Shown here one piece after another: positions 1-21,795 of a stretch of DNA of 22,199 bases. The stretch covers positions 1 to 22,199 of IMG/VR virus record IMGVR_UViG_3300007640_010386; one strand, written 5' to 3'. The number at the start of each line of letters is the position of its first letter. The first letter of the stretch is position 1. Position numbers and translations under genes: made by a program. The notes beneath the pieces were generated by a model, which saw only the letters and a program-made list of their open reading frames with translations, was not told where the DNA came from and did not search any database. The stretch comes from a virus.

Positions 1-792
1 ACAACAGGTACTTCAGGTACTTCGGGAACTACACCACCTTCAGCTGATTGCGCTGATAGCGTTAAAATTTTTAGTCAAAGTGTAGATACTACTGGATATT
101 CTCCAATGGGGGTATTTGCTACTTCTAGTGATGGCTCTTGCATTTATCTCTCAGCTAGCCATGATTTCTTCATATCTAGTATAAATAATGGAGGAATTGA
201 TGGAGGAGATACCCAAGAATTTGTTTTTGCTGATACAGGATCACTCAGTACTCATGCCTTAGTTACTAGAGCCCCATTTAGAATGCAAACTGGGTCATAC
301 ACAATAGCTTCTGCTAGTATGATGTATAAGTATAATTATATTACATCTGTTAATGTAGGAAGTATACCAGTTGGAAATTTAGATCTAATTACATTTAAAG
401 TACCAGACACTGTATTTAACCAAGAAAGTGCTCCTTTAGGGGGTAACAGAGTAATACATCCTTTCTCATCATCTTTTGATTACATGCAAGTTCGTCATTA
501 TGCTAAAACTACTCCTTCTACCCCTTACACTAGAATTCAATCATTTACTCACACATTAGTATGGACAAGGGAAGATCAAACAGGAGAAGGAACAGCAACC
601 AATTTAACTATTAACACAGTAGAAGATGCAAAATTTCCTAGTAACGCTTCTATTATAGATGCTGGATCTGTTACCGCCTCATTTGATGTAGATGGTAATA
701 TAGTATTAACTGCTTACCATTATAATGTAGATTATGTAAATCACCACTTTGATTATACGGTAATGGGTGATGTATCTAAACAAGGAACATAA
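1..792 (+). CDS. Tail/virion structural protein, 5' truncated by window edge
   Basis: The reading frame is open from the first base, so the ATG at 106 is probably an internal methionine and the gene starts outside the window. The visible part is about 263 residues. It begins with a Thr/Gly/Ser/Pro-rich linker (residues 1-15) and continues as Ser/Thr- and aromatic-rich sequence with alternating beta-type hydrophobics, as in phage tail fibre or baseplate appendage proteins. No signal peptide or membrane segment is visible. The stop overlaps the next start as TAATG, so the two are probably translationally coupled. I do not recognise a specific family; the structural role is inferred from composition and from the adjoining run of similar proteins ending in a clear fibre-like protein. 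Confidence 0.6.
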   Translation, partial: TTGTSGTSGTTPPSADCADSVKIFSQSVDTTGYSPMGVFATSSDGSCIYLSASHDFFISSINNGGIDGGDTQEFVFADTGSLSTHALVTRAPFRMQTGSYTIASASMMYKYNYITSVNVGSIPVGNLDLITFKVPDTVFNQESAPLGGNRVIHPFSSSFDYMQVRHYAKTTPSTPYTRIQSFTHTLVWTREDQTGEGTATNLTINTVEDAKFPSNASIIDAGSVTASFDVDGNIVLTAYHYNVDYVNHHFDYTVMGDVSKQGT

Positions 793-1328
793 TGCCCTTA
801 TATAATAAAGATAAACAAGGAATTAAATTAACACCTTCAGGGGAATCAGGAGTAACTTACGATACCCAAACCCCAATGAGAAGTTCATACAGTGCACTTG
901 GAGATTTTCAAAATGTGTGGCATTATAAACCTATATACAATATTATTAAACCTACTGTTAATAGTGTAGACTTATTTACTTTACGTCAAGGATATTTTAC
1001 TATTAGTGATAATAGAGAATTCACTATGTTACACATGTACCTTTCTGTGATAAGCCCATCCACTAGAGGAACAACCTCAGGTGCTGCTTTTGTAGAATAT
1101 AAATATTTTACAAATGTTACATCATTTAATTCAGGAACAGGTACTGGGGAAACCGTAGATGCTACTATGTTACTAACCATAGAAAACAACAATGGAAACA
1201 TTGGTATTTATCCTACAATAGGAAATCAAGGGGTATCATATAATATTAATGGAACTTTAGGAACTACAACTTTTACAGTACATGGGGAACCTAGTGCTTT
1301 TATTAGAGGAATATATTCGTACATATGA
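792..1328 (+). CDS. Putative virion structural protein (178 aa)
   Basis: I do not recognise this family. The protein is Thr/Ser/Asn/Gly/Tyr-rich with predicted beta content, no cysteine, no signal peptide and no transmembrane segment. It ends in a short Gly-aromatic tail (GIYSYI) that resembles the ends of the next two proteins (GHYIFM and GMYYMF). An internal stretch HYKPIYNIIKP may correspond to the NFTPVIGSY and YTPIIQGF segments of those neighbours, so the three may be distant paralogues. It overlaps the upstream stop by one base and the downstream start by four bases. A tail or fibre-tip component is inferred from the neighbourhood. Confidence 0.55.
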   Translation: MPLYNKDKQGIKLTPSGESGVTYDTQTPMRSSYSALGDFQNVWHYKPIYNIIKPTVNSVDLFTLRQGYFTISDNREFTMLHMYLSVISPSTRGTTSGAAFVEYKYFTNVTSFNSGTGTGETVDATMLLTIENNNGNIGIYPTIGNQGVSYNINGTLGTTTFTVHGEPSAFIRGIYSYI

Positions 1329-1882
1329 GTAGTTATGAAAGAATAGGATTTCAAGTAGAAAACGCTACAACATCATCAGTAGCCACTACAAATTTTACCC
1401 CAGTTATAGGAAGCTATACTAGTAATGAAGTTTTTTTGCAGGGAGGAACCGTTACTCTTTCTCTTTTTTTATATACCCCTAATAATACTAATCTTGATGG
1501 AATTAATACTTTTTTTAAATTACCTTATAATACTTTTATATTAAAAGGAGTACTTTATGAAGAACAAGCCCAAGGTTCTTCAGTACCTCCTACAGGATAT
1601 ACTATACGATTTACTAAAGATTATATGCTTAGTATTCTTTCACCCAATCCACAACTTATTAATACTACCTCTGGTTTTCTAGTTGAAAACACTGAACCTT
1701 ATGTTGAAATACACGCTACAAACCCAAATTATTCCTACCTAGCAACATCTATTATTGTTAGTTCTACTGCATTAAATACAACTATTACACCCTCAAGAAT
1801 TACTTTAGGATTTAATCTTACACCTACAGGAATATCAAATAGAAGTAATTTAAGTACTAAGGGACATTATATTTTTATGTAA
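1325..1882 (+). CDS. Putative virion structural protein (185 aa)
   Basis: Unrecognised beta-rich, Thr/Ser/Asn-rich protein without signal peptide or membrane segment. Its N-terminus (YERIGFQVE, then TPVIGSY at about residues 25-31) parallels the next protein (LNRIELHSS, then TPIIQGF), and both end in Gly plus aromatic/hydrophobic residues, so the two look like diverged tandem duplicates. The ATG lies inside the last codons of the upstream gene (ATGA overlap), and the next gene starts immediately after the stop with no gap. This points to one tightly coupled late operon. The structural role is inferred from position and composition. Confidence 0.55.
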   Translation: MSSYERIGFQVENATTSSVATTNFTPVIGSYTSNEVFLQGGTVTLSLFLYTPNNTNLDGINTFFKLPYNTFILKGVLYEEQAQGSSVPPTGYTIRFTKDYMLSILSPNPQLINTTSGFLVENTEPYVEIHATNPNYSYLATSIIVSSTALNTTITPSRITLGFNLTPTGISNRSNLSTKGHYIFM

Positions 1883-2377
1883 ATGAATACTTTAAACAGA
1901 ATAGAATTACACAGTTCTTCAAGCACTTTTAGTGATATAGGACAATCTCCTTATACCCCTATAATACAAGGGTTTTCTACTATTATAGATGAAAGTCAAA
2001 GTACTAATAATTTTTATACTTATTTAACAATAAATCCTATAGAATTTTCGCCTTCAGATAATAGATCATATACAGCATTAGTTGAAGGACAAATTAAATC
2101 TTTAGATTTAAATAAAAATTTTGGGCTTAATTTTAGACATTATATTATAAGGAGTGAAAATGAGGATAATATTTCCTTTGATTTTGAAGCTACAATACCT
2201 AATTCTATTAACCCCGCTTTTTGGGATATTTATAATATAAACCCTATTATCCCTACAACAGAAGCCTCTAACTATCAAGAAGTAACAATAAACTTAGACG
2301 GTGAATATGTTTTTCAGTTATATTTATCACCAGATTTCGTTTCAGCTTCAATATCTGGAATGTATTATATGTTTTAA
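1883..2377 (+). CDS. Putative virion structural protein (164 aa)
   Basis: Unrecognised family. It is Ser/Asn/Ile/Tyr-rich with beta-type alternation, no cysteine and no membrane segment. Its TPIIQGF segment near residue 25 and Gly-aromatic C-terminus (SISGMYYMF) match the layout of the preceding protein, supporting a tandem duplication. The codons are very AT-rich even for this window. It starts directly after the upstream stop and ends three bases before the fibre-like gene. It could be a baseplate or fibre accessory, or a small decoration protein; nothing in the sequence decides between these. Confidence 0.55.
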   Translation: MNTLNRIELHSSSSTFSDIGQSPYTPIIQGFSTIIDESQSTNNFYTYLTINPIEFSPSDNRSYTALVEGQIKSLDLNKNFGLNFRHYIIRSENEDNISFDFEATIPNSINPAFWDIYNINPIIPTTEASNYQEVTINLDGEYVFQLYLSPDFVSASISGMYYMF

Positions 2378-2380
2378 AAA

Positions 2381-4105
2381 ATGCCAGTATTTAACAATTT
2401 AGGTTTAACAATTGCTTCTTCAGGATCAGAAATTACTGCTTCTTTCCCTGTACTAGATGTGTATTTTAATTCCCCTAGTTATGGAGCTTTTAATCCTGCT
2501 GCTACTATAGGAAGTATTCAAGCCCAAGTAATAAATTATAACAACTCAGGCTCAGCGGGTGAAATTTTATTTAATGTAACATCATTAGAAAATTCAGGTT
2601 CTTCAGGAGTACCCGTTTTAGTTATAGCTGCTACAGGTAGTAATAATGAACCTAGAGTAGGTGTGGGATTTACAGGAAGTGAAAGACCCATTAAAGCATT
2701 TGATGTAAAATCTAAAACAGACACAGCTGAAGGTACCGAATTTTTAATACGATCCTCAAGATTAACAGAAGGGGCACAAATAGGAGATTTAGGGGGATCT
2801 ATAAGATTTGTTATTGACAGCTCATCTTTTGGAGATATTACATCATCAGGTTCAGTTGCCGAAATAGATAGTATAGTTACAGATGTAACGTCTAATGGAG
2901 TTCGTGGGGATTTATCTTTAAAAATTGGAATACAAAAAGAAGGAAACCCCACTGAAGTTATAAGGTTTAGAAATAATGATGGTGCCCCACTTGCTACCCT
3001 TACAGGAAGTCTTGTGACAAGTGGTTATATAAGAAGTGCAGACGAAATAATTGTAGGAGATGTAACTATAGACGGAACAGGAGTTAGCGCTAATAGTTTT
3101 ACAGCCTCTGCTGATATAAGTGCAAGTGGAGCTATACTTACTACAATTGCAGGTCCTAGTGATCAATTAGTAGAATTAGGAAATTATCCTATAGGATATG
3201 ATGTAGCCTCAGCCTTCCCTATTACGGGCTCAGGGATTATAGTTAGTGCTTCTACTTTAGCTTCTAATCATTATAATATGATTAAAGTAGGAGATATTGA
3301 GCTTGTAGATCTTAAGTCACTAATCAATCCTAACACATTTTTAATACACAACGTAGACCAATTCTCAATCACCTCAGGAAGTGATTCAGGGGATATTGCT
3401 AGTGCTAATTATTTAATGACTCACACTGGTGAATCTTTTGTATTACATAATAATGGAAGTAATATGCTTTCTATTACTAATGGGGCAGTATCATTTACAA
3501 CTAACACTACACAATTTACAGTACAAAACAGCACAGGAGATATAAATTTAATCCCTGCTACTGGAGATGTTAAACATCGTGTTAATAACACAGCTACTAC
3601 TAGTTCGGTTCATAGTTTTTCTGTATATGATGCCGACCCTTCTACTACTACAGGGGCATCAGTTAAAAACCTACCAGCTTCAGACGTAATTCTTAAAGGT
3701 ACAATAATATCAGGTAGTTTAGTATACTTTGGAGAAGAAAGTGGTGACCTAAGTACAGGTGTAAGTAATGGATATCAATTCTCGTATGGTAATGGTGCTA
3801 CAGGCACTATTGGTATACCAGTCCCAGTTGATTGTTATGCTAAAAAATTAATGTTTCAAGCAGAAACTTTTGGAACAAGCTGCACTATAGACTTATATAC
3901 AGGATCGATAACAACAAACCCCGCCACAGATACAGGAGAAGGTATGACTATTACAGGTACTGAGCACGGTAAAGTAGTGGACATAAACCCCGTATTTATT
4001 GCTGCAGGCCATTATCCTATATTTAGAACTACAGCCACTTCAGGTACCTATGGAAATGTAAGAGTAGGAGTATTTTTAGAATACCCCATGGAAATAGGAG
4101 TTTAA
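2381..4105 (+). CDS. Putative tail fibre protein (574 aa)
   Basis: A long, almost cysteine-free protein (two Cys near the C-terminus) dominated by Ser, Thr, Gly, Ala and Val in beta-repeat-like sequence, with repeated SGS/SGSG turns. The segment around residues 105-130 (PIKAFDVKSKTD, then FLIRSSR) resembles the start of modules seen in phage fibres that describe a particle state followed by repeats. The last 130 residues or so (from about VYFGEESGD to the end) read as a separate compact beta domain, a plausible receptor-binding or trimerisation tip. There is no signal peptide and no intramolecular chaperone-like endopeptidase motif. It closes the structural block and is followed after 37 bases by glycosyltransferases. 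Its Ser-rich beta architecture makes it a candidate substrate for them (inference). Confidence 0.65.
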   Translation: MPVFNNLGLTIASSGSEITASFPVLDVYFNSPSYGAFNPAATIGSIQAQVINYNNSGSAGEILFNVTSLENSGSSGVPVLVIAATGSNNEPRVGVGFTGSERPIKAFDVKSKTDTAEGTEFLIRSSRLTEGAQIGDLGGSIRFVIDSSSFGDITSSGSVAEIDSIVTDVTSNGVRGDLSLKIGIQKEGNPTEVIRFRNNDGAPLATLTGSLVTSGYIRSADEIIVGDVTIDGTGVSANSFTASADISASGAILTTIAGPSDQLVELGNYPIGYDVASAFPITGSGIIVSASTLASNHYNMIKVGDIELVDLKSLINPNTFLIHNVDQFSITSGSDSGDIASANYLMTHTGESFVLHNNGSNMLSITNGAVSFTTNTTQFTVQNSTGDINLIPATGDVKHRVNNTATTSSVHSFSVYDADPSTTTGASVKNLPASDVILKGTIISGSLVYFGEESGDLSTGVSNGYQFSYGNGATGTIGIPVPVDCYAKKLMFQAETFGTSCTIDLYTGSITTNPATDTGEGMTITGTEHGKVVDINPVFIAAGHYPIFRTTATSGTYGNVRVGVFLEYPMEIGV

Positions 4106-4142: not shown

Positions 4143-5084
4143 ATGCAAAAGTTACTTTATGTAACCCCCCACTTATCAACAGGAGGGTTACCACAATACC
4201 TTTTAAAAAAGATAGAGCATTTTAAGTCTCAATTTGATATCTATGTAATAGAGTATCAAGATTTAAGTTGGGAATATGTTGTTCAAAAAAATAAAATAAA
4301 ACAATTACTAGGGGAAGATAAACTTATCACATTAACTAAAGATAAACAAATTATATTAGATCATATAAAAAATATTAATCCTAATATAATTCATTTTGAA
4401 GAAATCCCTGAACATTTTATAGATCCTCTTATATTACAAAAAATATTTAGTTTATCCCAATATTCTATTATATCTACTACTCATTCTTCAAATACAAATC
4501 CTTCTACTCTAACTTCAACTCCTGATAAATTTATTTTAGTATCTGAATGGAGTAAAAATAAATTTGAATCTGTAGTAAATGTTCCTTGTGACATTTGGGA
4601 GTATCCTATTGAGGATTTAACCCCTAATAAAGAAAAATACCAAAAAGAATTAAAATTTGATCCTAATTATAAACACATAATTAACGTAGGATTATTTACC
4701 CCTGGTAAAAATCAAAGTGAGGTATTTAAAGTTGCTAAACAACTTGTAGATAAAAATATAATATTCCACTTTATAGGAAACCAAGCAAGCAATTTTGAAG
4801 ATTATTGGGGTCCTCTAATAAAAAATAAACCTAAGAATTGTAAAGTATGGGGGGAAAGAAATGATGTAGAAAAATTTCTACAAGCAGCTGATCTATTTTA
4901 TTTTAGTAGTATTCTAGAATTAAATCCTTTAGTAGTTAAAGAGTCTCTTTCTTATAAACTTCCTGTTATAATGAGAAAACTCCATACGTATGAAAATACT
5001 TACGATAATAATAATCTAATAACTTTTATAGATAATAATTTAGAAAAAACTAAAAGTATAATTTTAGAAAAATTAAAGTTATGA
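4143..5084 (+). CDS. GT4-like glycosyltransferase (GT-B fold)
   Basis: Predicted nucleotide-sugar glycosyltransferase of 313 residues. The N-terminal Rossmann-like half begins with LLYVTPHLSTGG at residues 4-15, the usual acceptor-side glycine loop of GT4 enzymes. The C-terminal half has the IINVGLFTPGKNQ segment (179-191, with the basic residue typical of the donor site) and an E-x7-E motif (E259...E267 in ELNPLVVKE), the donor-binding signature of the family. At 313 residues it is short for GT4 (usually about 350-400). It shares an ATGA overlap with the next glycosyltransferase, so the two are probably made together. The donor and acceptor are unknown. Phage tail protein glycosylation or alteration of a host surface glycan are the main options. 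Confidence 0.75.
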   Translation: MQKLLYVTPHLSTGGLPQYLLKKIEHFKSQFDIYVIEYQDLSWEYVVQKNKIKQLLGEDKLITLTKDKQIILDHIKNINPNIIHFEEIPEHFIDPLILQKIFSLSQYSIISTTHSSNTNPSTLTSTPDKFILVSEWSKNKFESVVNVPCDIWEYPIEDLTPNKEKYQKELKFDPNYKHIINVGLFTPGKNQSEVFKVAKQLVDKNIIFHFIGNQASNFEDYWGPLIKNKPKNCKVWGERNDVEKFLQAADLFYFSSILELNPLVVKESLSYKLPVIMRKLHTYENTYDNNNLITFIDNNLEKTKSIILEKLKL

Positions 5085-6244
5085 TATATGACAATTTAAC
5101 AAAAAAGCATTCTTACACAGTTAAAGATAAAATAGATATTTCTTTTATAGACGGTGCAAAAGTTGCAATTACTAGTCCTTCCAAAACCAATTACACAGTT
5201 AAATTTTTTAACCATAAAAATAATGATTTAGTATGGGTAGATACTATAACAGATGGAATGTGGACTAAACCTAGTATGATTTATTTTGTAAAATGGAGAG
5301 TAGAAGTTTGGAAAGATGATATTAAAGTAAAAGAACATATATTTAATTGTAAAAATAAAAGAATTTATATACATTTAGATTCTAAATCTTTAGGGGATAC
5401 TATAGCATGGTTTCCTTATGTAGAAGAATTTAGAAAAAAACATAAGTGTGAAGTAATTTGCTCAACTTTTCATAATGATTGGTTTTATAAACAATATCCT
5501 GAAATTAATTTTACGGATCCTGGTAGTGTGGTTCATGATATATATGCTTTATACCGAATTGGATGGTACTACAATAAAGACAACACTCCAAAACTATCTT
5601 CAAACCCTACAGACTTTAGGAAATACCCTTTACAAAAAACTGCAAGCGATATTTTAGGGTTACAGTATAAAGAAATTAAACCTAAAATTTATGTAAAAAA
5701 TCCAAATAACAATATAAAAGAAAAATATGTTGTAATAGCCCCCCATGGAAGTAAACATTCTTCATATTGGCATTACGAACAAGGATGGCAGTATATAATA
5801 AATTGGCTAAATAAAGCAGGATATAAAGTAGTTTTATTATGTCAAGAACCTTTAGGAGATGCTTGGCACGACTCTAAATTAGGGGGTACACTGCAAAATG
5901 TTATAAATAAAACAGGTGATATCCCTCTCCAAGAAAGATTTACTGATATACTAAACGCAGAAGCTTTTATTGGGATAGGAAGTGGATTGTCATGGATAAG
6001 TTGGGCATTAGGTACCCCTACTGTACTAATTTCTGGGTTTAGTGAAGAATACACTGAATTCCAGGACTGTGAAAGGATTAGTGCTTCTCCTAATGTTTGC
6101 AGTGGATGTTTTAATACTCATAGATTAGACCCTGGGGATTGGAAATGGTGCCCCCACCATAAAGATACAAACAGACATTTCGAATGCTCAAAATCTATAA
6201 CCCCAGATTTGGTTGCTGATGCCCTTGTTCGTATATTGGGATGA
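5081..6244 (+). CDS. TibC/Aah-like autotransporter-type O-heptosyltransferase
   Basis: The whole 387-residue protein matches the layout of the Aah/TibC/BAHT family, which transfers heptose to Ser residues of autotransporter beta-helices. It has an N-terminal beta domain (about 15-90), then a GT-B body with SLGDTIAWFPYVEEF (103-117; D106 matches the catalytic-site Asp region), APHGSKHSSYWH (220-231) and a donor-side GIGSGLSWISWALGTP (298-313). It ends in a cysteine finger C340-x2-C343-x13-C357-x11-C369, which in TibC binds iron. All four cysteines are present, so the enzyme looks intact. The family is known from bacteria; its placement directly after phage fibre genes and an ATGA-linked GT4 is unusual. 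The sugar may differ from heptose, as no heptose biosynthesis genes are in view. Confidence 0.87.
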   Translation: MIYDNLTKKHSYTVKDKIDISFIDGAKVAITSPSKTNYTVKFFNHKNNDLVWVDTITDGMWTKPSMIYFVKWRVEVWKDDIKVKEHIFNCKNKRIYIHLDSKSLGDTIAWFPYVEEFRKKHKCEVICSTFHNDWFYKQYPEINFTDPGSVVHDIYALYRIGWYYNKDNTPKLSSNPTDFRKYPLQKTASDILGLQYKEIKPKIYVKNPNNNIKEKYVVIAPHGSKHSSYWHYEQGWQYIINWLNKAGYKVVLLCQEPLGDAWHDSKLGGTLQNVINKTGDIPLQERFTDILNAEAFIGIGSGLSWISWALGTPTVLISGFSEEYTEFQDCERISASPNVCSGCFNTHRLDPGDWKWCPHHKDTNRHFECSKSITPDLVADALVRILG

Positions 6245-7501
6245 ATGTTTTGGCTTATAGAGAATAACGAACAATTAGCCCAACTTAGAGAAAAAGGATT
6301 TAAAAAAGTTTTTGTTGAACCTATATGGTCTAATGAAAACGTTCACCCTTACCATAGGGGAATCCAAGGGTTTTATATTAGGGAAGTAAACTATAAAAAA
6401 GGATTTATAGTTGTACTACAACATAGCGAAACCACTAGTTGTGGTATGGATGAAATTTATGATCTAATATATAGTTTTGATGAAATATTTGTAAGGGATA
6501 GGAAAGCATTTTTAAATATAGCGCCTAATAAAAAGCTTAGCGACATAGACTATATATATCCTACAGATATCCCAGACTCATTCCCATGCCACGATTTTTT
6601 CTATAGGCAATACCCTAACATAGCCAATATAGGTAGCATCATTCCCATAGTAAAGCATTATGAACGTTGTGAAACGATATTCAACGCGGTTAAACATGTG
6701 TTTTCTATGGAGAAACCACCACACTTTGAGTTTTATAACACCAAAGCTACAAATGTGTTTTATTGGATTGAACAAGAGGGAATTAAGGTAGATCCCGAGT
6801 TATTTGAAAAGTATTTTAAAGCTAATGTGACTCCTTGGGATCATGTTTATACGTGCTTTAATTTAAAAACAACTACTACGCGACCCTCAAACACTTATGG
6901 TGGTGTAAATTATATGGCGTTGGATAAAAAAAGTGGTTGTCGAGAAGCGTTTATACCCAAAAACGATTTTCTATTAGAGATTGATATTAGTGCTTATCAC
7001 CCTACATTAGCGGCACAATTGGTAGGATATGAATTTGAGCATGAAGACATACACCAAGCATTTGCTGACATGTATGGAGTTGATTATAAAAAGGCTAAGG
7101 AGTTAACTTTTAAACAGCTATACGGAGGGGTATTTAAGGAATATAAAGAGTTAGAGTTCTTTAAGCGTGTAGAAAAATATATAGAGGATATAAGTAGTAA
7201 GGAAGAATACAAGTGTAAATCTGGGTATGTTTTTAAAACAGATATGAAGCCCCAAAAGCTGTTTAATTACATACTTCAAAACACGGAAACGTATTATAAT
7301 GTGCTTATTTTAGAAGAAATGATACATATACTCAAAAATAGTGAAACTAAGATTGTTCATTATACTTATGATTCATTCTTGTTAGATGTATCCAAAGATG
7401 AGAAATATGTAGTGTTGTCTATCCTCGCTGTATTTAAGAAATATGGATTTTCTACTAAAGTAGAGGCGGGTCCCAATTATAGTTCTTTAGAAAGGGTGTG
7501 A
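6245..7501 (+). CDS. Divergent family A DNA polymerase with degenerate exonuclease-like N-terminus
   Basis: Residues 205-418 contain the Pol I fingers/palm motifs in order: TTRPSNTYGG (R213, equivalent to the conserved Arg before motif A), motif A EIDISAYHP (D247), motif B KAKELTFKQLYGG (K285, F289, Y293, G294) and motif C YTYDSFLLDV (D376). Both metal-binding Asp residues are kept. Motif A has His (H252) where Pol I has the steric-gate Glu, and motif C reads YDS rather than HDE. Residues 20-60 align with the first exonuclease segment of Pol I, but the DxE metal pair is replaced (FVEP), so proofreading is probably lost. At 418 residues it is short. It starts immediately after the heptosyltransferase stop. 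It is probably the replicative polymerase, or a specialised second one if a family B enzyme lies elsewhere. Confidence 0.8.
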   Translation: MFWLIENNEQLAQLREKGFKKVFVEPIWSNENVHPYHRGIQGFYIREVNYKKGFIVVLQHSETTSCGMDEIYDLIYSFDEIFVRDRKAFLNIAPNKKLSDIDYIYPTDIPDSFPCHDFFYRQYPNIANIGSIIPIVKHYERCETIFNAVKHVFSMEKPPHFEFYNTKATNVFYWIEQEGIKVDPELFEKYFKANVTPWDHVYTCFNLKTTTTRPSNTYGGVNYMALDKKSGCREAFIPKNDFLLEIDISAYHPTLAAQLVGYEFEHEDIHQAFADMYGVDYKKAKELTFKQLYGGVFKEYKELEFFKRVEKYIEDISSKEEYKCKSGYVFKTDMKPQKLFNYILQNTETYYNVLILEEMIHILKNSETKIVHYTYDSFLLDVSKDEKYVVLSILAVFKKYGFSTKVEAGPNYSSLERV

Positions 7502-7508
7502 TATTTAT
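7501..7508 (+). promoter_or_regulatory. Possible phage promoter element ATATTTAT
   Basis: ATATTTAT lies in the 22-base gap before the next gene and is one of six intergenic copies of ATATTTA(T/C) in the window. It lacks the following CGAAAGTT block seen at three other sites. In such AT-rich DNA a single copy could be chance. Confidence 0.3.
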
Positions 7509-7523
7509 ATATAAAGCCCAAGC

Positions 7524-7910
7524 ATGAACAACAAGCTATTTTGTACCTTTACTTCTTTAGAGGATTTAGAGAGGACATTATTGGAGGTAAAATCTAGCTA
7601 CGATATACTCTATAAAAAGATTTTTGTTTTATATATAAAAAGTAATGACGAATATGTTTGTACATATAACGTAGAGCCGAGCAGCGTAGAGAGAATTTTA
7701 CCCGAAACCATATTAGTCCACAGAAAAAAAGAATCCAATACTTTATATACAATTAACGCCCTTAACGAACTAATTAAGTCTTTAAACGGAGGGGTAGTTG
7801 ATGTGAGATATAAGGTGAATTGGCAACATTACAGAAACACCATTTTGCTCACTCAGCACAATGAGTTAAGACAATTAAAGACAAGGATTCACAAGATTAT
7901 TGAACTTTAA
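7524..7910 (+). CDS. Conserved-looking phage hypothetical protein (128 aa)
   Basis: Soluble, mixed alpha/beta, no signal peptide or membrane segment. The sequence (KLFCTFTSLEDLERTL near the start, ILVHRKKESNTLYTINALN at about 84-102) reminds me of a small uncharacterised protein family found beside replication genes in marine T4-like phages, but I cannot confirm that without a search and no function is known to me. It sits between the polymerase and ssb regions, 22 bases after the polymerase stop, with a possible promoter element in the gap. It has a Lys/Arg/His-rich C-terminal third (YRNTILLTQHNELRQLKTR) that could be a helical partner-binding segment. Confidence 0.6.
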   Translation: MNNKLFCTFTSLEDLERTLLEVKSSYDILYKKIFVLYIKSNDEYVCTYNVEPSSVERILPETILVHRKKESNTLYTINALNELIKSLNGGVVDVRYKVNWQHYRNTILLTQHNELRQLKTRIHKIIEL

Positions 7911-7920
7911 CGGTTTTGTA

Positions 7921-7928
7921 ATATTTAT
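7921..7928 (+). promoter_or_regulatory. Possible phage promoter element ATATTTAT
   Basis: ATATTTATCAA occurs 18 bases before the next start codon in a 36-base gap. It matches the ATATTTA(T/C) core found after the window's terminators, but no CGAAAGTT block follows. Confidence 0.33.
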
Positions 7929-7946
7929 CAATAAAAAATAGAAAAT

Positions 7947-8366
7947 ATGAGCTTTGATTATAAAAAATATTTAGCAGAAGGTGGTGTTGAGGGTCATTTA
8001 AATGAAGGCGTAAATAAACCCCTCCCAGATTTTTTTAAACCTATATTTGCTAAGTTAGCACAAGCTGGAGGAGGGGTACAAAATTTTGATAGAAATCCTT
8101 CCCCCAAACAACTTACTGATTTAAGAAACAATCCTAAAAAACCTTATGCTTTATTTAGTTATGATAAGATTCCTGCTCAAGAAAACTTACTTGTTATTTA
8201 TATAAAAGACAGCCCTACAGATAAGGTTATGAAAGAACTTGAAAGTAAAATACCTAAAGCTGATCCAATGAAAACTGATAATCCTAAAGATGAGATACTT
8301 AGTGCTGGAGAAAGGGTAAAAAATGGAGAAGTTCTAGAACAAACCTTTTTTAGAATCACCCAGTAA
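7947..8366 (+). CDS. Hypothetical protein (139 aa)
   Basis: Not recognised. A short charged protein beginning MSFDYKKYLAEGG, a type of N-terminus I associate loosely with small marine phage proteins. A Pro/Asn/Lys-rich middle (FDRNPSPKQLTDLRNNPKK) is followed by a hydrophobic beta-like strand (ENLLVIYIKD) and a C-terminal helix with many Glu/Lys. No cysteines, signal peptide or membrane helix. It stands alone between a possible promoter element and the strong terminator that ends this transcription unit just before ssb, so it is the last gene of the polymerase unit. Confidence 0.55.
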   Translation: MSFDYKKYLAEGGVEGHLNEGVNKPLPDFFKPIFAKLAQAGGGVQNFDRNPSPKQLTDLRNNPKKPYALFSYDKIPAQENLLVIYIKDSPTDKVMKELESKIPKADPMKTDNPKDEILSAGERVKNGEVLEQTFFRITQ

Positions 8367-8387
8367 AAATAAAAAATATTTTAAATT

Positions 8388-8415
8388 AAGCTTGGCTTCG
8401 GTCAAGCTTTTTTTT
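8388..8415 (+). terminator. Intrinsic terminator with UUCG tetraloop upstream of ssb
   Basis: A 9-bp stem AAGCTTGGC / GTCAAGCTT (one G-U pair) closes a TTCG tetraloop between C and G, followed by six further T after the stem. It separates the polymerase unit from the ssb-uvsX-helicase operon. A TTG that could extend the ssb frame lies inside this stem and is therefore not a credible start. Confidence 0.85.
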
Positions 8416-17428: not shown

Positions 17429-18247
17429 ATGAGTATAGAAGCATCAGCAAAAGGAGCAATAGTATCACATGAGATACCTTTTGCCTACCTACAAGCTAGT
17501 CTAGAATTTAACGACTATGACTATTTACTCCCTCATTTATATGATCAATTTGAGGAGTACAAAGAATTCTTCCAAAGGAGCAACCATGCAGGTAAGCGTC
17601 ACATTATAATGGATAATTCTCTCCATGAACTTGGAGCACCTTACTCAAAAGGTAGAATGATTTCTATTATTGAGGAAATAAAACCCGATGAATTTATAGT
17701 ACCAGATGCTTGGGAAGACGCCACCCAATCAATGCGCCAAGCTAAAGAATGGAGCTTTATTGAATTACCTGAAGGGGTAAAGAAAGTTGCAGTAGTACAA
17801 GGTAAATCATTTGATGACGTAGTAAAGTGTTATCAAACATATAAGTGGTTGGGTTATACCAAAATTGCATTTTCATATGGAGCTAGCTATTATAACGATA
17901 TATTCCCACATCCTAATAAGGATATTGGAAAAGCATTAGGTCGTCAATTAGTTATTAGCAAAATGATTAATATGGGTCTTATTGGAAAAAGCGACAAAAT
18001 TCATCTTTTAGGTTGTTCCCTCCCACAAGAGTTTTTATATTATAAGGATATAAAACAAATTGTAAGTATAGACACTTCAAATCCTGTAATGGCTGCATTT
18101 GATGGCACTCTTTATAATAGTTGGGGTTTAGATTCTAAACCTAAAACTAAAATAGATGAAGTAATTGATGCTAAATTTGATGAAGCCATATACGAAGCTA
18201 TACGACATAATACTACATACTTTAAATTAATTAATAATATAACATGA
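17429..18247 (+). CDS. dpdA: DpdA-like 7-deazaguanine DNA transglycosylase
   Basis: TGT-superfamily TIM-barrel protein of 272 residues, predicted to swap guanine in DNA for a 7-deazaguanine base. Motifs in order: HIIMDNSLHELG (58-69; D62 candidate acid/base), PDEFIVPDAWEDATQSM (86-102), VVQGKSFDDVV (122-132), KIAFSYGASYY, IHLLGCS (191-197), and IVSIDTSNPVMAAFDG (211-226), where D215 would be the nucleophile by analogy with tRNA-guanine transglycosylase. The tRNA-enzyme zinc motif (CxCxxC...H) is absent; only two Cys exist. The assignment is reinforced by direct linkage to queC-like (ATGA overlap), queD-like and queE genes, a combination known from phages that modify their genome. A tRNA substrate is less likely given the short length and the phage context. 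Confidence 0.8.
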   Translation: MSIEASAKGAIVSHEIPFAYLQASLEFNDYDYLLPHLYDQFEEYKEFFQRSNHAGKRHIIMDNSLHELGAPYSKGRMISIIEEIKPDEFIVPDAWEDATQSMRQAKEWSFIELPEGVKKVAVVQGKSFDDVVKCYQTYKWLGYTKIAFSYGASYYNDIFPHPNKDIGKALGRQLVISKMINMGLIGKSDKIHLLGCSLPQEFLYYKDIKQIVSIDTSNPVMAAFDGTLYNSWGLDSKPKTKIDEVIDAKFDEAIYEAIRHNTTYFKLINNIT

Positions 18248-19080
18248 ATAAACAAGCAGTTTTATCTTTAAGTGGAGGAATGGACAGCTCTACAGTTTTG
18301 CTAAGACTATTAGCAGAAGGCTACGAGGTTACAGCTTTGAGTTTTGATTATGGACAAAAACATAAAGTTGAACTCTCCCGTGCTCGTGAATTAGTGAGCC
18401 ACCTTAATACAGTTAGACTTGAACAATCCCCACTAGGTGAATTTAGAGAAAAATACCCAGAAATTAAATATGGAGTAATTAAACTTGATGGTTTGGCTCC
18501 TATGCTTAATAGTGCCCTTGTAGAAGGTGGAGATGAGGTGCCTGAAGGACACTATGAACAGGAAAACATGAAGGAAACAGTTGTTCCTAATAGAAATAAA
18601 ATTTTCTCATCAATAATTCAAGCGGTAGCACTATCAATAGCAAATGAAAAAGATACTGAAGTATATATTGCGATGGGTATTCACGCAGGTGATCATGCTA
18701 TATACCCCGATTGTAGACAAGAGTTCAGGGACGCTGACTATGCAGCTTTCACCGAAGGTAATTGGAACGCTGAGCGCGTTACCTATCATACCCCTTACCT
18801 CAGTGGGGATAAGTATGATATTTTGCTTGATGGAAGAAGATGCTGCGATGAATTGGGACTTGATTTCAACCGAGTTTATTCCCTTACAAATACTTCTTAT
18901 AAGCCCCTTAGTTTTGGTGATAAGTGGTACAGCGACTATAAATCTGCTTCTTCGGTGGAACGTGTCGAAGCGTTTATTAAGTTGGGGACAGAGGATCCGG
19001 TACAATATGCTGATGAGAGAGGACCCGTTACATGGAATACTGTAAAACAACATGTTGAACAAGTTTTAGCTGAAGCCTAA
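18244..19080 (+). CDS. queC: QueC-like preQ0 synthase lacking the zinc cysteines
   Basis: PP-loop ATPase of the QueC family, which converts 7-carboxy-7-deazaguanine to preQ0 with ATP and ammonia. It has SGGMDSS at 10-16, ALSFDYGQKH (31-40), VVPNRNKIF (113-121), GIHAGDHAIYPDCRQEF (145-161) and TPYLSGDKYDIL. The C-terminal zinc site is gone: where QueC has TWSCY and CGxCxxC before R-x2-AF, this protein has TNTSY and Ser/Asp at the matching places (S218, D231, S234, S237). At 278 residues it is longer than typical QueC (about 220-230). It overlaps dpdA by ATGA and queD by one base. It may still make preQ0 by another fold-stabilising means, or make a related base such as the amide. Confidence 0.83.
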   Translation: MNKQAVLSLSGGMDSSTVLLRLLAEGYEVTALSFDYGQKHKVELSRARELVSHLNTVRLEQSPLGEFREKYPEIKYGVIKLDGLAPMLNSALVEGGDEVPEGHYEQENMKETVVPNRNKIFSSIIQAVALSIANEKDTEVYIAMGIHAGDHAIYPDCRQEFRDADYAAFTEGNWNAERVTYHTPYLSGDKYDILLDGRRCCDELGLDFNRVYSLTNTSYKPLSFGDKWYSDYKSASSVERVEAFIKLGTEDPVQYADERGPVTWNTVKQHVEQVLAEA

Positions 19081-19538
19081 TGTTTATATCAACTAAAGTA
19101 TTTGATGGGTTTAGCTGTGTGTTTCGTCAAGCTAAAGCAGAAGGCACACATTGTAGATTTCTTCATGGTTATGGAATCTCGTTTAAAGTATGGTTTAAAG
19201 GGGAACTAGACGAACGTAATTGGGTTTGGGATTTTGGGGGTATGAAACGTGCTAAAACCGAAATAGATGGTATGAGCCCTAAAGCTTGGATGGACCATAT
19301 GTTTGATCATACTATGCTTGTAGCAGAAGACGATCCATTCCTAGAATCATTCCGTAGAATGGATGAAGCAGGTGTAATTCAACTTAGAGAAATACCAGCA
19401 ACTGGAGCAGAGCGTTTTGCTCAGTATATTTATGAGAAACTTAACAAGTTTGTATTAGAAGAAACAGATGGACGTGTTAAGGTTATGCAAGTAGAATTTA
19501 GAGAACACGGAAAAAACACAGCAATCTATGCTGAATAA
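19080..19538 (+). CDS. queD: QueD-like 6-carboxytetrahydropterin synthase, variant zinc site
   Basis: Tunnelling-fold protein of 152 residues related to QueD, which converts 7,8-dihydroneopterin triphosphate to 6-carboxytetrahydropterin, the QueE substrate. EGTHCRFLHGYGISF (21-35) aligns with EGHKCGRLHGHSF of E. coli QueD, giving the catalytic Cys25 and ligand H29. The second His of LHGH is Tyr31, and the first ligand in FxAAH is not seen. WVWDFGGMK (48-56), FDHTMLVAEDDP (75-86, D76-H77 catalytic) and EFREHG (139-144, E142) follow. I associate this CVFRQ/LHGY form with a QueD-like clade in marine phages. It is coupled to queC by a one-base overlap. Confidence is high for the fold, lower for the exact reaction. 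Confidence 0.8.
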   Translation: MFISTKVFDGFSCVFRQAKAEGTHCRFLHGYGISFKVWFKGELDERNWVWDFGGMKRAKTEIDGMSPKAWMDHMFDHTMLVAEDDPFLESFRRMDEAGVIQLREIPATGAERFAQYIYEKLNKFVLEETDGRVKVMQVEFREHGKNTAIYAE

Positions 19539-19566
19539 ATAAAAGTTAATAACAAAAATCAAAATT

Positions 19567-20187
19567 ATGAAAAAAACAATTATGGCCTTTGGGTTGGCCT
19601 TAACCACCCTAGTTAGTTCTGCACAAACAACTGTTGTTGATGTTATTGTAAATAGCGAAGACCACACCTTGTTAGAAGCTGCAGTAGTAGAAGCAGGATT
19701 AGTTGAAGCTTTAAGCGACACAACAGGAACATTTACAGTATTTGCACCTACAGACAGTGCATTTATTACTTTAGCAACCTCACTTCAACTCGAACCTACT
19801 GATCTATTAGAGTTACAAAACTTGACAGATATTCTTACATATCATGTTGTGGGAACCACAGCTCTAAGTACTGATCTGTATGATGGTATGGAAGTAACAG
19901 CACTAAACAATGGTACTTTAACTATTGGTGTAGATAGCACAGGAGTCACAGTTGAATATGCCATGGTCACAGTTGCTGACCTTGTCACAGATAATGGTGT
20001 TGTTCATGTTATTGATGCTGTTCTTGTACCTAGTAGTACTAATTCAATACTAGAGCTAGAAAATAAAACCCCACAAAATAATATTTACTATAATATTATG
20101 GGTCAAGAAATTGATAGTTACGATCAAATTCCCTTTAACTCCATTTATATTAAAAATGGTGAAAAGTTTCTAAAGATCGAAAGATAA
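19567..20187 (+). CDS. Secreted FAS1 (fasciclin) protein with T9SS-like C-terminus
   Basis: A 206-residue exported protein. It has a signal peptide at 1-20 ending SSAQ, then a single FAS1 adhesion domain (about 22-155) with the H1 motif TFTVFAPTDSAF (55-66), the YH motif (92-93, LTYHVVG) and H2 NGVVHVIDAVLVP (143-155). After a linker, the last 35 residues or so (YYNIMGQEI, then IPFNSIYIKNG and KFLKIER) resemble the type A sorting domain of type IX secretion substrates, which occur only in Bacteroidota. FAS1 proteins mediate surface adhesion; in a phage the product may modify the infected cell surface or be a host-derived moron. It sits between queD and queE, interrupting the modification cluster. 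Confidence 0.85.
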   Translation: MKKTIMAFGLALTTLVSSAQTTVVDVIVNSEDHTLLEAAVVEAGLVEALSDTTGTFTVFAPTDSAFITLATSLQLEPTDLLELQNLTDILTYHVVGTTALSTDLYDGMEVTALNNGTLTIGVDSTGVTVEYAMVTVADLVTDNGVVHVIDAVLVPSSTNSILELENKTPQNNIYYNIMGQEIDSYDQIPFNSIYIKNGEKFLKIER

Positions 20188-20188
20188 T

Positions 20189-20207
20189 ATGCTTAAAAGG
20201 ATAGAAG
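20189..20207 (+). repeat. 19-bp direct repeat, copy 1 (duplicate of queE start)
   Basis: These 19 bases are identical to the first 19 bases of queE (21022-21040), including the ATG. They begin one base after the FAS1 stop and end at the first base of the terminator stem. An exact match this long is not expected by chance in 22 kb. Confidence 0.9.
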
Positions 20208-20243
20208 GCTGCTTCCTTAATGGGGAGCAGCCCTCTATTTTTT
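20207..20243 (+). terminator. Intrinsic terminator after the FAS1 gene
   Basis: A 7-bp stem GGCTGCT / AGCAGCC with a 12-base loop, followed by CTCTATTTTTT. It would end the transcript from the dpdA-queC-queD-FAS1 unit and is immediately followed by a promoter-like element. Confidence 0.78.
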
Positions 20244-20245
20244 GT

Positions 20246-20264
20246 ATATTTACAACGAACGTTT
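20246..20264 (+). promoter_or_regulatory. Putative phage promoter before the small membrane gene
   Basis: ATATTTAC followed by AACGAACGTTT, two bases after the terminator T-run. This is a variant of the ATATTTAT...CGAAAGTTACA arrangement seen before ssb and the M43 gene. It would drive the small membrane gene, the secreted protein and queE. Confidence 0.48.
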
Positions 20265-20291
20265 AGTAGAACTTAATTAAAAAACACAATA
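20262..20291 (+). repeat. 30-bp direct repeat, copy 1
   Basis: TTTAGTAGAACTTAATTAAA and ten more bases recur at 20533-20562 with a single C/T difference. This copy forms the untranslated leader of the small membrane protein gene. Confidence 0.92.
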
Positions 20292-20298
20292 AAATAAA

Positions 20299-20547
20299 AT
20301 GAATTATATAATTTTTGTAATAGTACTTGGAGCTATTTTTGGTGGAATAGCATATATGGGGAAATCTACAAGTAAAAATACCCCTACACCCCCTGATACC
20401 CTTTCTAAAGAGAAAAATTTAAACAACACAATGGAGAACGATATTTCAATAATTAAAAAGTGGGTTAGCTTTTTTGGATGGTTAACCGTTATTAACTTAG
20501 TAATAGCATTTGGGTATGTTATGTCTTTAGTATTTAGTAGAACTTAA
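20299..20547 (+). CDS. Small two-TM membrane protein (82 aa)
   Basis: Not recognised. Transmembrane segments at about 3-20 (YIIFVIVLGAIFGGIAYM) and 56-78 (VSFFGWLTVINLVIAFGYV), with a hydrophilic Thr/Pro/Lys/Asn-rich loop between them (22-52). No cysteine and no enzyme motif. The gene lies between two near-identical 30-bp repeats; the second copy encodes its last residues and stop. It could be an accessory holin/antiholin, a superinfection-exclusion membrane protein or an unrelated moron; the sequence does not decide. The leader is A-rich and lacks a Shine-Dalgarno site. Confidence 0.6.
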   Translation: MNYIIFVIVLGAIFGGIAYMGKSTSKNTPTPPDTLSKEKNLNNTMENDISIIKKWVSFFGWLTVINLVIAFGYVMSLVFSRT

Positions 20548-20562
20548 TTAAAAAACATAATA
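20533..20562 (+). repeat. 30-bp direct repeat, copy 2
   Basis: 29 of 30 bases match 20262-20291. This copy spans the last codons and stop of the small membrane gene and serves as the leader of the next gene, ending two bases before its ATG. Confidence 0.92.
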
Positions 20563-20564
20563 GC

Positions 20565-21008
20565 ATGAAAAAAATAGTTTTGACAATAGGATTAGCAGCT
20601 ATCTCTGCTATTGGGTTTGGGCAAATTACTTTCATCCAAAATTATATGAATGGGATGGAAGTAGGAGATTATAAATATACTTGTACTGATTCTACTATTA
20701 CTTATGAAGCCATAGGTAAAAAATCAATTGAAACCTCTATGAAAATGGGATTACCTATTACCTCTACTCAAAATGCTAAATTAGTTTCTACTAAAAAAGT
20801 AGGAGAAGGAAGTATAGTTTACACATATAATGCTTCTTATGTTGATTTTTTAGGATTTGATGTGAGGCAATCAATTACAATAGTTTATAACCCTAACCCA
20901 GTCATCCTTTTCGGGGAACAAGTGGGGTCATGGAGTACTACGACAAAACAATTTTCTACTTTTGATAATAGTTCTACTGAGACTTTTACTATGTATATGA
21001 AGCTTTAA
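20565..21008 (+). CDS. Secreted hypothetical protein (147 aa)
   Basis: Not recognised. It has an N-terminal signal peptide (KKIVLTIGLAAISAIGFGQ) with a ..GQ end typical of Bacteroidota exported proteins, then about 127 residues of Thr/Ser/Tyr-rich beta-type sequence with one Cys (residue 40) in the mature part. The fold looks like a small all-beta periplasmic or surface protein. It lacks a T9SS-like tail and a lipobox. It follows the repeat-flanked small membrane gene and ends 13 bases before queE, so it belongs to the cassette that seems inserted at the queE start. It may be a host-derived moron (inference). Confidence 0.58.
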   Translation: MKKIVLTIGLAAISAIGFGQITFIQNYMNGMEVGDYKYTCTDSTITYEAIGKKSIETSMKMGLPITSTQNAKLVSTKKVGEGSIVYTYNASYVDFLGFDVRQSITIVYNPNPVILFGEQVGSWSTTTKQFSTFDNSSTETFTMYMKL

Positions 21009-21021
21009 AAAAGAAAAGTAA

Positions 21022-21040
21022 ATGCTTAAAAGGATAGAAG
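21022..21040 (+). repeat. 19-bp direct repeat, copy 2 (functional queE start)
   Basis: The first 19 bases of queE, identical to 20189-20207. The two copies bracket the terminator, promoter-like element, small membrane gene and secreted-protein gene, giving an 833-bp repeat period. Confidence 0.9.
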
Positions 21041-21795
21041 ATTACGATAAAGTATTACCTGTATTAGAGGTATATCGATGCGTGCAAAGTGAGGGCTCCC
21101 GTTTCGGGCGCCCCACTATTGCCGTTCGAACTACAGGATGTACCCACCGCTGTTGGTTTGGTGAAGGTGGGTGGTGTGATTCGTGGTATACTTCAATCCA
21201 CCCTGAAAAAGGTACGTTTACATTTAATGACATTATCAATATTTATGATGAGAATCCTCAAGTAAAAGAGATGATGTTAACAGGGGGTTCACCAACAATG
21301 CATGCTGCCCTTGTAAATGAACTTACCCATTTTGCCAACGAAAGAGGAATTCTTATTACAATCGAAACCGAAGGGTCTCACTTCGTGGAAACGGATTTTC
21401 CACTTGGTCTCGTATCCCTTAGCCCTAAGTTTTCTAATTCTGTCCCTCGTGTGGGTATTACTACTCCCGGTGGTAAAGTGGTTGATGAAAGGTTTGTCAC
21501 TCAGCATAACAAGTTTAGACTCCATTATGAGAACATTCAGAAAATGATTGATTTTCATAGTGATTATCATTACAAACCAGTTTGGGATGGTACCGATGAG
21601 TGTTTAGCTGAAATTGAGGAATTTAGAGTTAAAATGAATATTCCTAAAAATAAAACATTTGTTATGCCTGCAGGTGATACAAGAGAAACACTAGTTGAAA
21701 TGTACCCTAAAGTATTTGAAATGGTCGCTGAGCATGGATATAATATGACTGGTCGAGACCATATTATAGCTTATAATACAGAACGTGGAGTTTAA
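21022..21795 (+). CDS. queE: QueE 7-carboxy-7-deazaguanine synthase (radical SAM)
   Basis: Radical SAM enzyme of 257 residues that converts 6-carboxytetrahydropterin to 7-carboxy-7-deazaguanine. The N-terminal VLEVYRCVQSEGSRFGRP (14-31) and VRTTGC are QueE-typical. The cluster-binding cysteines are C40, C44 and C52 in the spacing C-x3-C-x7-C, with WFGEGGW inserted where E. coli-type QueE has CxxxCxxC. LTGGSPTMH matches the GGE/SAM-contact region, followed by IETEGS and LVSLSPKFSN (substrate loop). It supplies CDG to the QueC-like protein and so the base for DpdA. It is separated from queD by the FAS1 gene and a two-gene cassette, and a terminator follows its stop. Confidence 0.9.
   Translation: MLKRIEDYDKVLPVLEVYRCVQSEGSRFGRPTIAVRTTGCTHRCWFGEGGWCDSWYTSIHPEKGTFTFNDIINIYDENPQVKEMMLTGGSPTMHAALVNELTHFANERGILITIETEGSHFVETDFPLGLVSLSPKFSNSVPRVGITTPGGKVVDERFVTQHNKFRLHYENIQKMIDFHSDYHYKPVWDGTDECLAEIEEFRVKMNIPKNKTFVMPAGDTRETLVEMYPKVFEMVAEHGYNMTGRDHIIAYNTERGV

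Follow-up and report, generated by a model that had tools for sequence, protein, structure and literature searches.

The genes at 4143..5084 and 5081..6244 of an IMG/VR virus record are likely to form a minimal phage module whose target for O-glycosylation is a giant collagen-like tail fibre. The record, referred to here as the window, comprises 22,199 bp and carries phage-like replication genes. The first gene of the pair encodes a GT4 glycosyltransferase (PHLSTGGLPQYL type) of 313 aa (PF00534, E 1.4e-13). The second encodes a TibC-like GT9 protein O-glycosyltransferase of 387 aa, identified by the TIGR04414 profile, phmmer, a structure model compared by Foldseek, and residue checks. Both genes lie on the plus strand, and the stop of the GT4 frame and the start of the TibC-like frame overlap in an ATGA at 5081-5084, which bears out the coupling of the two enzymes claimed in the original prediction. 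On the same strand, the window begins with the 3' end of a collagen-like tail-fibre gene (1..792), which is cut by the contig edge and has an open frame from base 1. It is followed by four Ser/Thr-rich genes for putative fibres or adhesins (792-1328, 1325-1882, 1883-2377 and 2381-4105). That a Ser/Thr-rich block precedes the enzymes had been predicted as well, and the upstream ORFs at 106-4105 indeed contain 20-26% Ser and Thr.

The protein encoded at 5081-6244 is a full-length relative of TibC and Aah. The profile TIGR04414 (hepto_Aah_TibC) matches it with 302.7 bits over 370 residues, the curated equivalog cut-off being 200 bits, and phmmer finds the TibC crystal-structure chains 4rb4/4rap with an E-value of 1e-56. 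LPS heptosyltransferases of family GT9 score far weaker on the same ORF (28-31 bits). Together with the superposed structure model, these matches confirm the earlier observation of full-length similarity including the four-cysteine iron-type finger. The structure was predicted with homologues as input and without templates and reached a pLDDT of 90.7. In Foldseek it aligns with TibC (4rap) at E 2.6e-35, with a TM of 0.85 and an rmsd of 2.6, and the predicted fold contains the N-terminal beta-barrel and the GT-B domain of TibC. Asp106 corresponds to the catalytic base D110 of TibC and is Asp in 68 of 68 phage-clade enzymes. The equivalents of Arg286 and Trp305 are kept, and the cysteines of the iron finger (340/343/357/369) are present in the window enzyme and, judged from sequence, invariant in the phage clade (68/68). 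In all these features the enzyme resembles the TibC/AAH family (BAHT, TIGR04414). WaaC/RfaC and RfaQ, which also belong to GT9, share the fold and the C-terminal donor-binding domain but have neither the TibC barrel nor the iron finger.

The phage branch differs from TibC/AAH at several positions. At the TibC thumb tip F265/V266, phage enzymes carry Asp (65/68) and a mostly polar residue, the model shows a helix (261-267) where TibC has its beta-hairpin thumb, and some of the other clade-1 enzymes lack this segment altogether. The TibC dodecamer needs this thumb tip; a TibC-type dodecameric ring is therefore doubtful for the thumbless phage branch. Phage enzymes have Gly at the position of TibC Pro300. 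The position of TibC Lys230 is Lys in 63 of the 68 enzymes of the phage clade and Ser in the window enzyme; it is Ser or Ala in all five members of the window subclade that were examined (window, L028, L029, L033 and L036), which have in common a Lys three residues before it. The label of heptosyltransferase in the original prediction therefore calls for caution as to sugar and oligomeric state. The partners differ too, being an autotransporter for TibC/AAH and a collagen-like fibre in the phages; a Pfam scan, which covered part of the genes of a fragmentary window, found no autotransporter beta-barrel. Because the window enzyme is TibC/AAH-like but lacks the thumb and Lys230, we set it apart as a variant, and we propose that the phage enzymes constitute a distinct TibC-like branch for proline-free collagen-like tail fibres.

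Of the fibre itself, the window contains little repeat. Positions 1-33 encode TTGTSGTSGTT, followed by a non-repeat C-terminal domain, and PF01391 gives no score on this fragment alone, in which only three repeat triplets are present. In a near-identical phage (L029, uvsX 99% identical) the same gene pair is preceded by 223 GSS/GTS triplets, and the fibre protein of this phage matches PF01391 with E 2e-95; from this phage we infer the full repeat of the window fibre. That the collagen-like partner is a tail fibre is established in another relative, L052, whose ORF of 1,915 aa matches PF01391 (E 1.6e-155) as well as tail-fibre PHROG families and carries a C-terminal Peptidase_S74 chaperone domain. 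On gene maps of 25 viral relatives, giant ORFs rich in Ser, Thr and Gly are located near the TibC-like enzyme in many cases. Across 10,107 triplets from 45 proteins, X is Thr in 48% and Ser in 29%, Y is Ser in 56%, and Pro is outside the 12 commonest residues at both positions. A chance origin of the repeat was considered and ruled out, as it occurs in no control locus even at looser cut-offs and its Ser residues are encoded by both TCN and AGY codons. In L052 (301-6045), long stretches of the G-X-Y repeat are interrupted fairly regularly, roughly every 24 residues. Relatives of the C-terminal domain at 1-789 of the window were sought in viral contigs and none was confirmed.

The TibC-like enzyme and the collagen-like repeat are coupled across viral genomes. 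Out of at least 589 stretches, 80 viral relatives were kept, to which bacterial relatives were added, and uvsX- and sheath-anchored viral loci served as controls. Associations were assessed by Fisher tests with loci treated as independent, after dereplication at most, and p values are indicative in view of shared ancestry. An S/T-rich G-X-Y ORF is present in 37 of 39 TibC-positive viral loci of at least 15 kb and in none of 120 TibC-negative control loci, the relaxed cut-off included. The survey of related phages for co-occurrence with fibre genes, suggested together with the original prediction, therefore yields a strong link, namely to the collagen-like fibre. In a test at the same genomic position (sheath-anchored loci, dereplicated at 95%, with at least 6 kb of sequence upstream), 32 loci had both parts, 3 the enzyme alone, none the repeat alone and 14 neither (p 1e-9, kinship ignored). 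The corresponding numbers for sheath-retrieved loci only were 6, 1, 0 and 14 (p 1.3e-4, likewise ignoring kinship). When whole records were searched with a DNA pattern, the repeat was detected in 18/18 TibC-positive and 0/10 TibC-negative records (p 8e-8, again with kinship ignored). Named phages, with the repeat in one of two TibC-positive and neither of two TibC-negative genomes, bring these totals to 19/20 and 0/12: LR756501 has enzyme and repeat, Flavobacterium phage immuto and LR756508 have neither. The megaphage LR756504 (L485) encodes a diverged thumbless TibC-like enzyme and has no GTS repeat in 636 kb.

Several individual records qualify these counts. Two records drawn first as uvsX controls carry both enzyme and repeat, and G073, counted as TibC-negative, matches the enzyme weakly and in part. 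In L069 and L083 a proline-rich collagen is encoded in the locus beside the enzyme, and GTS repeats lie elsewhere in the records, with one match only in L083. The reverse test started from 50 repeat-bearing records, drawn from 120 that had been retrieved by pattern alone: the enzyme was found in 23 of them and in 18 of the 24 with a length of at least 60 kb, so that it is absent from about one quarter of the long repeat-bearing records. The presence of the GT4 gene tracks that of the enzyme, with a homologue in 55 of 56 TibC-positive viral loci that have at least 5 kb of sequence upstream, versus 0/68 TibC-negative controls. Among cultured phages, the Microcystis phage Mel-JY01 carries both enzyme and repeat. 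Its protein WWT39291.1 (L027, 4750-8430) is annotated only as FkbM methyltransferase, and a TibC-like domain matches at 7336-8391.

The same pairing occurs in bacteria. In a midpoint-rooted tree, the phage enzymes and the bacterial enzymes L109-L114 and L117 make up one half (clade 1), and TibC and the other bacterial enzymes the other (clade 2); the phage-containing clade has a support of 0.92 in the reduced tree. A (GTS)n ORF is encoded at 6 of 7 bacterial clade-1 loci, and none of the bacterial clade-2 (TibC-side) loci passed the S/T-rich G-X-Y test. In L109, 3 bp separate the end of the (GTS)n ORF from the enzyme frame that follows; in L113 the ORF is located about 5 kb from the enzyme. 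Judged by eye, the N-termini of the (GTS)n proteins are signal-like in L109 and L111 and lipobox-like in L114.

The enzymes could instead act on the short Ser/Thr-rich fibres encoded at 792-4105 or on further proteins of virion or host, in which case the link to collagen would reflect common location in the variable tail-fibre region. In both the window and L029 the short genes do separate the repeat gene from the enzymes, and the region is variable. We nevertheless regard this explanation as improbable, since enzyme and repeat co-occur even when apart, as in G016 (L024) with no repeat near the enzyme and 35 matches elsewhere in the record, and since the bacterial pairs lie outside phage tail regions. 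Furthermore, relatives have only partial homologues of the short window genes or none. L029 and L035 each have, in the corresponding position, a homologue of the gene at 2381-4105; in the block as a whole, no Pfam family exceeded the cut-off and only weak phrog matches were obtained. The four proteins are possible secondary substrates. The original prediction was that the phage may glycosylate its own beta-rich fibres, by analogy with autotransporter beta-helices. Action on the phage's own fibres is supported by the two-way association, whereas the beta-rich fibre is probably wrong as main substrate and the collagen-like (G-T/S-S)n tail fibre fits the co-occurrence better. Glycosyltransferases beside phage tail-fibre genes are usually interpreted as altering host LPS or phage DNA, and modification of LPS or surface polysaccharide, which might for example exclude other phages, has been proposed for such enzymes of pelagimyophages (PMC7029224). 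GT9 contains LPS heptosyltransferases and GT4 enzymes are common in LPS pathways. For the pair described here such a function seems rather unlikely: over its full length the TibC-like protein matches the branch of protein O-heptosyltransferases, barrel and iron finger included, and not WaaC/F, and an LPS substrate does not predict that the enzyme tracks a collagen-like fibre in both phages and bacteria.

A further question is whether the enzyme of the window subclade still transfers heptose. It may use another donor or may have become an inactive scaffold for the GT4 enzyme. The alanine mutant of TibC K230 is crippled, with activity abolished or largely diminished (PMC4358343), and with this residue replaced in the five members examined, heptose remains a candidate sugar. 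The equivalents of D110 and W305 and the four cysteines are kept, however, and the Lys that the subclade has acquired three residues upstream might perhaps stand in for K230. The frame is open and identity within the subclade amounts to 60-70%, which argues for continued constraint. We therefore consider a loss of heptosyltransferase function unlikely, if less so than the two explanations above.

A search for ADP-heptose genes, also suggested at the outset, gave a largely negative result for the phages themselves: gmhA was absent from all 18 phage records searched, and rfaE-like domains were detected in a few of the 18 as weak matches below the cut-off. In cellular genomes, rfaE domain II exceeded the cut-off in 6 of 9 clade-1 bacterial or host genomes and in 39 of 52 genomes from the family of a Flavobacteriales genome, a plausible host family. 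Among named phages, Flavobacterium phage immuto has the DnaB nearest to that of the window (56%) and also a similar replication block; a flavobacterial host is thus plausible for the window phage.

Taken together with the enzyme data, we infer that the fibre is glycosylated during infection. The TibC-like enzyme would add a sugar to Ser, and perhaps Thr, of the Gly-Thr/Ser-Ser triplets; TibC is known to target Ser on repeats (PMC4358343). The sugar would most likely be heptose, supplied by the ADP-heptose of the host. As the probable second enzyme, the GT4 protein would lengthen the glycan, and in other phages FkbM methyltransferases, further GT4 enzymes and carbamoyltransferases may decorate it. 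The sugars would probably substitute for proline and hydroxyproline, stabilise a collagen helix that lacks proline, and coat the fibre. A carbamoyltransferase gene was observed within a large-phage glycosylation cluster in L011 (6314-7939) and relatives.

Glycosylated collagens are known from other systems. According to a review (PMC8968730), X in bacterial collagens is often Pro and Y often Thr. The BclA-type proteins of the Bacillus exosporium share the Gly-X-Y pattern, and their triple helix is believed to benefit from the attached sugars (PMC8968730). Unlike these, the phage repeats have Thr or Ser at X and Ser at Y with Pro uncommon, the enzyme family is a different one, and for the phage fibre the glycosylation is a prediction. 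Known phage collagen-like tail fibres (PF01391, PHROG) are likewise giant G-X-Y proteins, and L052 has the Peptidase_S74 domain; a dedicated glycosyltransferase partner for them is not described in the open-access literature searched. In the open-access papers searched, to which the novelty of this finding is limited, we found none tying BAHT enzymes to phages or collagen.

More tentatively, and as a scenario on which we remain slightly on the sceptical side, the widespread phage TibC-like branch may have switched from beta-helix autotransporters to proline-free (Gly-Thr-Ser)n fibres. O-glycosylation would then replace proline hydroxylation, the thumbless enzyme would work without a ring, and small secreted (GTS)n proteins of free-living bacteria would be the cellular version of the system. 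The link holds in both directions and concerns a specific fibre, each chain of which offers hundreds of possible Ser/Thr sites, so that glycosylation of phage virions becomes testable. It also suggests how a collagen-like helix could be stable without proline, and it gives a family known for the glycosylation of virulence adhesins a broad relative in the environment with another predicted substrate.

The remainder of the window holds some additional features. The glycosyltransferase pair sits directly upstream of a gene at 6245-7501, as it does in L029, and in L023 and L024 a TibC fusion is located just downstream of the homologue of this gene. The encoded protein of 418 aa shows weak likeness to DNA polymerase (phrog_17, E 2e-6). 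The region 17429-21795 encodes QueC, QueD and QueE homologues and an uncharacterised phrog_19058 protein. This set fits the synthesis of 7-deazaguanine (preQ0), possibly for DNA or tRNA modification. A protein with a fasciclin domain (PF02469, E 1.7e-27), whose N-terminus resembles a signal peptide, is encoded at 19567-20187.
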